DNA from: Microcystis viridis FACHB-1342
GTDB lineage: Bacteria > Cyanobacteriota > Cyanobacteriia > Cyanobacteriales > Microcystaceae
Assembly (NCBI RefSeq): GCF_014698335.1
Contig: NZ_JACJSV010000052.1
Coordinates: 1-33,726 of the forward strand
DNA length: 33,726 bases
Reading direction: 5' to 3'
Below, one piece after another: positions 3,833 through 33,344 of the stretch; within the stretch, counting starts at the first letter, position 1, and the number at the start of each line of letters is the position of its first letter. The notes under the pieces are model-generated. The model ran no database searches, had not been told where the DNA came from, and saw only the letters and a list, made by a program, of their open reading frames with translations. The translations under genes and the position numbers were made by a program.

Positions 3833-4765
3833 TCAAGCAATCATCCAGAAAGAACCGGGTAATCGATCTTCATTATAAGCATTGATATTCTCAAGAAACA
3901 CAGAATTCTTATAATGAGATACCATAGATAAGGATGCCAAAATTTTAAACTTTTTGTTAAATTGTAAAAAAGTTTCTAAAAAGTATTGCTCGTTCCAGTA
4001 TCGTGATTCTCTCAGATTCCATTCGATGGGATAATCATAGGGAAAGAATATATCGTGAATATGAACTAAGACTCCTGTGTGTAAACGGGGATAAACTTGA
4101 AGAAATTCAAACTCCACATCACTACCAGACTTAAATACATGACTGGAATCAACGAACAGAATATCATTGGTTTGCAGGGATTCAAAAACAGACAAATCTA
4201 CGGCTTCTACTTTCTGGATAAGCAAACTAAATTCTAGAAAATCTTTACTAACATTAGCAAAGTCTTTTAAAAAATCTTGAGGATAAGGCTCGATCGAGAT
4301 CAGTTGTGATTTTTGGGAATTTTCTATAAAATTCATTTTTAAAGCTGCGGCGATAATCTTAGTGCTACCACCTGAGCCAATTTCAATTACCCGATTAGGT
4401 TTTTTTTCTCTGACCATAGCATAGAGGACTTCCGCATCACCACTAATGAGACCAGAACTATCTTCGGAATAACCAAACGCTGAAAAAATTTCTTTATTGT
4501 TAAATTCTAACGCATATTTTTCTAGTAAATACCTAACCAGTTCAGTTTGCTTGTCTAGATGCCATTCAATTGAGCTAAGAGGCCTTTCCTTGCCCGCGTA
4601 TGTCATAATTTCCTGACGGTTGGGTATCGGCTGATAAAAATGGTCAGTAATTAGGGTGTAGCCAATATTTCTTAAGAGGGGATTGAATATTTTTTTGGCT
4701 AGGGCAAATTTAATATTTTTTCTACCCTGTTCGGTTTGCATACGGTTAAGTAATTTTTTCAACAT
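3833..4765 (-). CDS. Class I SAM-dependent methyltransferase-like protein (Methyltransf_24 type)
   Basis: About 310 residues. A classic SAM-binding motif I is visible, RVIEIGSGGSTKII, followed by the acidic motif LISIEPYPQDF and a motif DILFVDSSHVFKSGSDVEFEF, then a VHIHDIFFPYDYP segment. These are typical of Methyltransf_24 proteins found in surface-glycan clusters. The reading frame can be extended to a TTG at 4771, but ATG at 4765 is preferred because an AGAAGG ribosome-binding sequence sits 6 bp upstream of it. It is the first gene of the minus-strand glycan cluster and is separated from GT2 by relic DNA. Substrate unknown; a sugar or glycan methyl transfer is inferred from context. Confidence 0.82.
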   Translation of the reverse strand: MLKKLLNRMQTEQGRKNIKFALAKKIFNPLLRNIGYTLITDHFYQPIPNRQEIMTYAGKERPLSSIEWHLDKQTELVRYLLEKYALEFNNKEIFSAFGYSEDSSGLISGDAEVLYAMVREKKPNRVIEIGSGGSTKIIAAALKMNFIENSQKSQLISIEPYPQDFLKDFANVSKDFLEFSLLIQKVEAVDLSVFESLQTNDILFVDSSHVFKSGSDVEFEFLQVYPRLHTGVLVHIHDIFFPYDYPIEWNLRESRYWNEQYFLETFLQFNKKFKILASLSMVSHYKNSVFLENINAYNEDRLPGSFWMIA

Positions 4766-31310: not shown

Positions 31311-31702
31311 GTGGTTATACAACGGTGGTCCCTACCAGTTAGTCATTTTCCACTTCTTACTAGGTGTCTTCTGCTACCTCGGTCGGACGTTTAATCTTCC
31401 AATACGCTTCTTTCAACAACAGCCGCTCTCTGCACTTCTTCTTAGGTGCTTGGCCGGTAATCGGTATCTGGTTTACGGCAATGGGTGTTAGCACCATGGC
31501 GTTTAACCTCAACGGTTTCAACTTCAACCAGTCGATTCTCGATTCTCAAGGTCGTGTAATCGGTACCTGGGCCGATGTGTTAAACCGCGCTGGTATCGGG
31601 ATGGAAGTAATGCACGAGCGTAATGCTCACAACTTCCCCTTAGACTTAGCTAGTGGCGAACAGGCTCCTGTAGCTCTGACCGCTCCTGCTATCAATGGTT
31701 AA
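31309..31702 (+). pseudogene. psbA: psbA (photosystem II D1) pseudogene, truncated and internally deleted
   Basis: The frame from 31309 gives [20 protein letters not shown] and FCYLGR (D1 residues about 104-129). It then jumps, with a one-base frame change at 31381-31388, to [20 protein letters not shown] and on to the C-terminus ALTAPAING (D1 residues about 256-360, stop at 31700). About 125 codons, including the pheophytin/chlorophyll-binding region around His198 and His215, are missing, as are the first ~103 codons. The surviving 3' half is undamaged: the Mn-cluster ligands (HERNAHN, DLA) and [15 protein letters not shown] are intact. It cannot make a functional D1. Confidence 0.9.
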
Positions 31703-32224: not shown

Positions 32225-32450
32225 TAGATTCTCCTTTTAGGTGGTGCGGAGGGATACCTCGCGTTTGTGGTCTCTTCTGTCAGTCTTGAAAATTTTAACG
32301 AATTTACGTCGTTTCAGGCTAGGAGAAATCAAGATTTCAACCCACTTTGACAAAAGAGAGATCATTCTCTCAATCCCTTTGTAGTACACATATAGTACAT
32401 TTGCCCAAAAAAATCGAACAAGGGTAAAAAGGGAAAAAAGAGGAAAAGGG

Positions 32451-33344
32451 TTACAGAGTCCCCCCGAATACGCACACCACCCGAAAACCGCAGCCGTAGC
32501 TGATGAAGTCGCGGCTGCGGCTGCCGATGCGGAAAGCGGAACGGCAGCTATCCGGAGGGTTGAACCAAGAACCGCCCCGCAGCACTTTTGTAGTAGATTT
32601 GTTCTTGCTAATCCAAGCACTCCCATCAGTGGGTGCGCCTTGATAATTAGGGTGATAATCGTCCTCGCACCATTCCCAAACGTTTCCGTGCATATCGTAC
32701 AGTCCAAAGGCATTAGCTACCTTAAAATAGCCTACTGGTGTCGTCTGTTTTCGATCGATGCCTTTTAGTCCCCTTCCATAATTCCCTGGATAAACTTTTT
32801 TGTCTCTTTCCCAATCAGTTCCTCTGTAATTAGCCAAATCTGTGGTAATCGTCTCCCCAAAATGAAAGGCGGTTGTTGTCCCCGCTCTACAGGCATATTC
32901 CCATTCTGCCTCACTCGGTAGCCGATACTCCCGTTTTGTTTCCCTTGATAGTCGTTTACAGAATTCTGTTGCTTGCTCCCAGTTGACTTGTTCTACGGGT
33001 CTTGTCCATCTATCCTGCTCTTGATATGGCTCTTTGAAGTGGGAAGGCTCTAGTTCTAGATCGATGTCTATTTTAGCAGTTGCGGCGATCGCTCGCCACT
33101 GTGCTTGGGTGATGGGATAGCGTCCCATGAAAAAAGCTGAAATATTAACGGTGTGTTGAGGACTTTCTCTTTGGAAATAGTCTAGATCGTATTCTTTACA
33201 GAGTCTTTCTATTTCTTGATCTGGGGTTCCCATCTGGAAGGAACCGCTAGGGATAAGCATCATGTCGAGATTAATGTCTTCCCCTAAATTCTCGCTGTAA
33301 TATTGTGCTTCTCGTTGCTGTCGGTGAATGATTAATTTAGTCAT
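32451..33344 (-). CDS. FGE/SUMF1-fold protein with retroelement-type variable C-terminus
   Basis: A 297-residue protein of the formylglycine-generating-enzyme (SUMF1, C-type-lectin-like) family. Motifs in order: MLIPSGSFQMGTPDQEIE near the start, FFMGRYPITQAQW, VNWEQATEFCKRLS, EYRLPSEAEWEYACRAG, LYDMHGNVWEWCEDDY, VLRGGSW and GFRVVCVFGG at the end. The two-cysteine active site of true FGE (CHRSYC then RC) is not preserved in the RGGSW-to-CRSAFR stretch, so it is unlikely to make formylglycine. The last ~45 residues have the codon pattern of a DGR variable region. Its role is probably ligand or surface binding. ATG at 33344. Neither a reverse transcriptase nor a template repeat is in the window. 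Confidence 0.88.
   Translation of the reverse strand: MTKLIIHRQQREAQYYSENLGEDINLDMMLIPSGSFQMGTPDQEIERLCKEYDLDYFQRESPQHTVNISAFFMGRYPITQAQWRAIAATAKIDIDLELEPSHFKEPYQEQDRWTRPVEQVNWEQATEFCKRLSRETKREYRLPSEAEWEYACRAGTTTAFHFGETITTDLANYRGTDWERDKKVYPGNYGRGLKGIDRKQTTPVGYFKVANAFGLYDMHGNVWEWCEDDYHPNYQGAPTDGSAWISKNKSTTKVLRGGSWFNPPDSCRSAFRIGSRSRDFISYGCGFRVVCVFGGTL
32480..32570 (-). other. Candidate DGR variable region (VR) at the 3' end of the FGE-fold gene
   Basis: Between the RGGSW motif and the GFR motif the gene has 15 consecutive codons ending in C (TTC, CGC, ATC, GGC, AGC, CGC, AGC, CGC, GAC, TTC, ATC, AGC, TAC, GGC, TGC; 32490-32534), plus AAC, TTC, AGC and TGC just upstream. That is what randomising the adenines of AAC template codons gives. 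The end is followed by a G-rich GTGGTGTGCGTATTC and GGGGGG block like the initiation site (IMH) of known DGRs. Confidence 0.55.

Follow-up and report, generated by a model that had tools for sequence, protein, structure and literature searches.

Does the gene near one end of this stretch of Microcystis viridis DNA (33,726 nucleotides, the window) owe the end of its reading frame to a diversity-generating retroelement (DGR), and is that end still being rewritten? The product carries Pfam FGE-sulfatase at residues 27-290 (E 1.8e-54), the only domain that a domain scan returned, and the candidate variable region (VR) lies at the 3' end of the gene, as in DGR targets of the C-type-lectin (CLec)/FGE fold, with 12 codons between the end of the VR core and the stop codon. 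The features of the locus are as follows.

32451..33344, minus strand: FGE-fold DGR target gene, stand-alone; open reading frame of 297 residues with an ATG start and its stop codon at 32451-32453
32565..32582, minus strand: constant 5' block of the VR, CTGCGGGGCGGTTCTTGG, LRGGSW, from comparison with templates
32490..32564, minus strand: VR core, GGSW to GFR, 25 codons, 20 of them ending in C
32490..32534, minus strand: run of 15 consecutive NNC codons from CRSA to GFR, read from the codons
32454..32489, minus strand: constant 3' block of the VR, GFRVVC and a G-run, aligned with template tails
32401..32450, minus strand: pyrimidine-rich 3' flank behind the stop codon, 82% C/T

Homology of this VR to templates in related species covers about 32454-32582, slightly past the borders that the sequence-only reading had drawn. 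Only 382 bases separate the start of the gene from the contig end, and a psbA-like fragment lies 0.7 kb from it on the plus strand (31364-31702; Photo_RC E 6.4e-07, profile positions 211-254 of 260).

That reading had listed fifteen codons after CRSA as all ending in C, third positions elsewhere in the gene as mixed, and a run of G downstream, and each of these holds: 15 of the 15 codons at 32490-32534 are NNC, only 54 of the 256 codons before GGSW are and their longest run is 3, and GGGGGG is present on the gene strand near 32460. Chance or local composition, in the form of a GC-rich stretch that happens to hold NNC codons, would have to produce a given run of 15, an event with a probability of about 7e-11 if the NNC frequency of the gene itself is applied, and would have to do so again in 10 other full-length copies in the same genome and across the genus; we give it practically no credence.

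These copies emerged from a VR search of the M. viridis genome, which gave 24 matches at E <= 10 and 12 at E <= 0.001, the latter being 11 full-length VRs (that of the window included) and one 3' fragment on contig C65. The ten other full-length copies have the same constant blocks and an NNC-rich core, CTGCGGGGCGGTTCTTGG is mostly common to them, and the positions that vary in their alignment are mostly the first and second positions of NNC codons. The domain scan describes their genes, together with atypical ones, as follows.

C116 and C119: TIR-FGE
C84: caspase-FGE
C96 and C130: atypical targets, caspase-nSTAND-FGE and KAP-NTPase-FGE
C105, C73, and C68: frames of 624-926 residues with no second Pfam domain at E <= 1e-5

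The target genes are not all whole, as the one on C126 is cut by the contig start and a second one on C116 is a frame of 154 residues.

The comparison set comprises 12 Microcystis genomes, one per species, including that of the window (G000), and all 12 have VR matches. In total there are 126 VR-type matches (E <= 0.001, templates included), and most, not all, of these places were fetched; an extraction rule applied to the fetched loci (exact GGSW...GFR, length divisible by three) yielded 108 repeats, of which 104 are VRs and 4 are templates. The rule misses some matches, among them the orthologue of the window gene in G007 and several repeats of G009 (M. aeruginosa FD4), and it admits three atypical repeats of the M. 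viridis genome (L013, L031, and L039). RVT_1 is matched in 10 of the 12 genomes, and a full-length match to the DGR-type reverse transcriptase (RT) of G004 is present in four: G002, G003, G004, and G009. The same four have Avd matches over most of its length and an AAC-rich template repeat (TR) directly 3' of the RT. Cassettes and templates are thus seen directly in sister species, with RT, Avd, and TR together in G004 and G009, where the Avd proteins match the NCBIfam equivalog NF033474 (E 1.7e-38 and 8.6e-40, respectively). The RT has 352 residues and contains the stretch LPIGNLTSQ, which we take to be the DGR form of the motif; none of the NCBIfam RT models named for DGRs matched, the best match being group_II_RT_mat, far under its cut-off. 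The G004 cassette is ordered target (CHAT/NB-ARC/FGE), avd, RT, TR, and in FD4 the intact RT and TR are on the 43.6-kb plasmid p1FD4 (NZ_CP046974.1), where an IS5-like transposase gene separates avd from the RT. Phages were considered as donors of the RT and rejected, as all 129 matching phage-collection records are below 60% identity and two viral_contigs loci are at 34-36%.

Set against the G004 template without gaps from GGSW to GFR, the window VR mismatches at 21 of 30 A positions and at 5 of 66 others (Fisher p 6.4e-10), so that congeners do offer a template repeat whose adenines, and few other positions, coincide with the differences in the VR. The 5' block CTGCGGGGCGGTTCTTGG is exact in the G003 and G004 templates and one base off in those of G002 and G009, and the tail of the VR is closest to the G009 template tail; the tails of VR and TR align as homologues that differ little, which fits a role for the 3' block (32454..32489) as the candidate initiation site of mutagenic homing. 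None of the congener templates is the exact template of the window VR, since its core is nearest to G004, its tail is nearest to G009, and five non-A mismatches are left. Two of these five are T-to-C changes, and against the G004 template two T-to-C changes are also seen in 7 of the other 11 VRs scored in the M. viridis genome, and one in L006 and L007; for L012 (no T-to-C) and L013 (two) the G009 template was the reference instead. The recurrence suggests that the positions were probably already C in a local template now lost. Summed over the 12 VRs of this genome, with L031 and L039 left out, mismatches amount to 185 of 348 at A and 46 of 780 at non-A positions; the scoring favors A mismatches where gaps are needed, and the window VR itself aligns ungapped with the G003, G004, and G009 templates.

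The adenine-specific pattern is also observed directly among orthologues. Six were compared (the window gene and those in G003, G006, G007, G009, and G010), the other five being 96.5-97.6% identical to the window gene in nucleotides upstream of the VR core, and with columns gapped in any sequence (one codon) dropped, all 28 template-A columns vary, against 9 of the 44 non-A columns (Fisher p 1.7e-12 for this contrast) and 62 of the 780 upstream ones. The expectation that variation among strains would concentrate at template adenines is thus borne out, and this, with congener templates that adjoin DGR-type RTs, strongly supports the proposal of a DGR VR in an FGE/C-type-lectin-fold protein. Positive selection or recombination among paralogues could in principle have made the VR variable without retrohoming, since recombination is open to eleven paralogues that share a genome and two G010 loci with different flanks have identical VRs; the variation, however, falls on positions that are A in a template of another species, fewer third codon positions are variable (5 of 24 columns in four orthologues) than first and second positions (30 of 48), and the templates directly adjoin DGR-type RTs, so that we consider this route very improbable. 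Three of the orthologous loci (L124, L123, and L190, in G003, G006, and G009, respectively) are accompanied on the same strand by another VR at a distance of 1.7-2.4 kb. For the part of the window gene upstream of the VR, dN/dS values against three orthologues are 0.83, 0.50, and 0.28, and selective upkeep of the gene is accordingly uncertain.

The machinery is a different matter. The sequence-only reading had the VR served by a template and an RT outside the window, for which the M. viridis assembly (138 contigs, rated 99.97% complete) offers no support. It contains no RVT_1 match and hence no intact DGR RT, and tblastn with the G004 RT recovers solely residues 262-325, at 94%. Avd gives no match at E <= 10, with avd-start fragments only, on C84 and C65. 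With the VR or the G004 template as query, everything recovered is a VR copy, the C65 fragment, or a match that is short and weak, so that the proposed search for a template with matching sequence in the same genome came back empty. The C65 fragment was rejected as a template because it consists of a VR 3' end and its flank with about 20 bp of the avd start behind, downstream of an unrelated gene.

The wreckage of a cassette is directly visible in this genome. Downstream of the caspase-FGE target on C84, the start of avd is fused to RT sequence, of which 168 bp are left (98.8% identical to G004), with the template absent behind it; the RT remnant is interrupted by a short GC-rich repeat and is about 3.4 kb inside a 112-kb contig, and is therefore not an assembly edge. 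The same avd-to-RT junction and the same inserted repeat are present on G003:C15, indicating that the wreck probably arose once and was then inherited or transferred. The repeat, about 24 bp long, interrupts the RT remnant at an identical place in both genomes (G000:C84, about 108,925-108,948; G003:C15, L120 about 4251-4276), and on C84 part of it is found again where the remnant ends on the opposite side. Decay of this kind is seen in several congeners: the FD4 chromosome has RT residues 1-220 at 96% to G004, G001 has a 30-residue RT end, and G002 and G007 have avd starts.

We therefore regard the window gene as very likely a genuine DGR target that was orphaned through decay of its cassette, and its VR as now most likely frozen. 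By analogy with established DGR biology, a template RNA with randomized adenines would have been the source of mutagenic retrohoming into the 3' end of the FGE/CLec-fold gene, and retrohoming is presumably what wrote the window VR. A cassette of the order target, avd, RT, TR would later have been destroyed, leaving 11 full-length dispersed VRs orphaned and most likely frozen. Since RT, Avd, and TR are absent, we infer that diversification in the M. viridis genome has ceased.

It is conceivable instead that the VR is still being rewritten in trans, with an intact RT and its template residing on a plasmid or falling into a gap of the assembly. The FD4 DGR is on a plasmid while 10 of the 13 FD4 VR matches (template not counted) are on a chromosome-sized contig, and an FD4-like DGR plasmid could be missing from an assembly in 138 contigs. 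Cyanobacterial DGRs on plasmids have been published (PMC7517822), and trans activity best explains some loci in another bacterium (PMC10907252), as far as the available portions of these reports describe them. Against this, a genome of such completeness has no RT, Avd, or TR match, the RT remnant is well within its contig, and the same state is found in two genomes of 1 and 2 contigs (G001 and G011), which have no full-length DGR RT yet have 13 and 11 VR matches. We consider present activity in trans unlikely, with some weight left to it.

VR counts are much the same with and without an RT. In genomes with no full-length DGR RT the VR matches (E <= 0.001) number 12 in G000, 13 in G001, 7 in G005, 11 in G006, 6 in G007, 5 in G008, 14 in G010, and 11 in G011, and in those with one, with templates subtracted, 7 in G002, 15 in G003, 8 in G004, and 13 in G009, giving ranges of 5-14 without an intact RT versus 7-15 with one. 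The genome's own template is the best match for 7 of the 31 extracted VRs in the four RT-positive genomes, a count that depends on the same scoring, with its leaning toward A mismatches at gapped alignments. FD4's own template is best for 2 of its 8 extracted VRs, both with 0 non-A mismatches, and the 0 of 9 obtained for G003 should be taken loosely, as the G003 and G004 templates are much alike. That likeness, together with the scoring, makes best-template labels rough. Single genomes that lack the matching machinery contain VRs whose nearest templates are of two or more types.

To follow VRs between genomes we used 75 reciprocal-best pairs with upstream similarity of at least 0.93, which may still hold some paralogue pairs; a looser screen (900 pairs, at least 85% upstream identity) was dropped because it mixed paralogues. 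VR identity is at least 0.987 in 32 pairs (21 identical and 11 one base apart) and at most 0.848 in 43, with none between, which implies that VRs either pass down almost unchanged or are replaced as a block. A single locus supplies 25 of the 32 same-VR pairs. Counted as same and different VRs, there are 18 and 20 pairs where both genomes lack the RT, 13 and 20 where one has it, and 1 and 3 where both do. The presence of an RT was tested as a predictor of VR change and showed no association over the 75 pairs, and while the VRs of the M. viridis genome are probably frozen, VR sameness does not track RT status. Between the targets of G004 and the FD4 plasmid there are only 4 differences in 450 upstream bases and the VRs are just 70% identical, so at least some block replacement within the genus is recent. 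In a TIR-FGE gene on G000:C116 (L117 2764-4131), the VR is identical in six species and one base off in two more (8 of 12), with 10 A and 0 non-A mismatches to the FD4 plasmid template, and on this comparison appears to be a VR kept unchanged. Taken with the VR counts and the minority of own-template matches, it indicates that targets appear to outlast the cassettes that wrote them. Two loci in G010, which has no DGR RT (L163 and L168, on G010:C165 and G010:C77), have identical VRs and upstream regions only 88% identical over 383 bases, which looks like duplication or gene conversion of the VR.

The flanks of VR loci also have a signature. A 3' flank of at least 80% C/T follows 63 of the 104 extracted VRs and none of the 4 templates (0.34-0.44), and may serve in targeting or be a trace of spread by duplication. 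A GC-rich hairpin behind the VR was considered as a required element and is unsupported, being present in 40 of the 104 extracted VRs and absent from that of the window.

A wider reading, which we put forward tentatively and would not yet favor, is that Microcystis DGR machinery may be a transient, partly plasmid-borne mutator that rewrites chromosomal FGE-fold sensors in trans and is then lost, leaving between visits a frozen repertoire that a later matching cassette could reopen. The hints are mixed template types without machinery, similar VR counts with and without an RT, and a C116 VR unchanged in 8 of 12 species. The sensor repertoire would then be long-lived, with some members fused to TIR, caspase, nSTAND, or NB-ARC/CHAT domains, and in its frozen state would be a heritable record of past diversification in each lineage. 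DGR surveys commonly start from the reverse transcriptase, and genomes without one are thus missed even when they have a dozen hypervariable genes. Microcystis species with and without an RT that share orthologous targets offer a setting in which to ask whether frozen sensors keep their value, how rapid the turnover of cassettes is, and whether targets are re-armed by plasmids.

A limited search of the open literature (titles and abstract starts) turned up no description of orphaned VR sets in Microcystis. Remote DGR targets in cyanobacteria are already known, and targets outliving their DGR are the interesting part. In Trichodesmium, 18 TR/VR loci, of which 11 or more are hypervariable in metagenomes, are recorded in the available part of a review (PMC8867640), and a global DGR survey states, in the section accessible to us, that remote targets would escape detection (PMC8144416). 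The cyanobacterial DGRs of Vallota-Eastman et al. 2020 (PMC7517822), to the extent that the available text describes them, have many remote CLec variable proteins per genome and some plasmid locations, and resemble the M. viridis set in their CLec-fold targets, 3'-end VRs, template-adenine pattern, many remote targets, and N-terminal regulatory domains; their remote targets, however, are assigned to the DGR or DGRs of their own genome, whereas M. viridis has targets and visible remnants with no intact RT or template. The putative antigen sensors of Thiohalocapsa PB-PSB1 (PMC10907252) are likewise FGE-subtype CLec proteins with conflict-system domains and incomplete loci, and trans activity is the favored explanation at some of them; diversification was observed there at every incomplete or remote locus except one, according to the portion of that report available, in contrast to M. 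viridis, in which a functional cassette was not found. Within the genus, the Avd-type DGRs of G002, G003, G004, and G009 share the same constant VR blocks and FGE targets with the M. viridis set, and these 4 of the 12 genomes keep a full-length RT and TR where M. viridis retains only a scar, of the G004 lineage.
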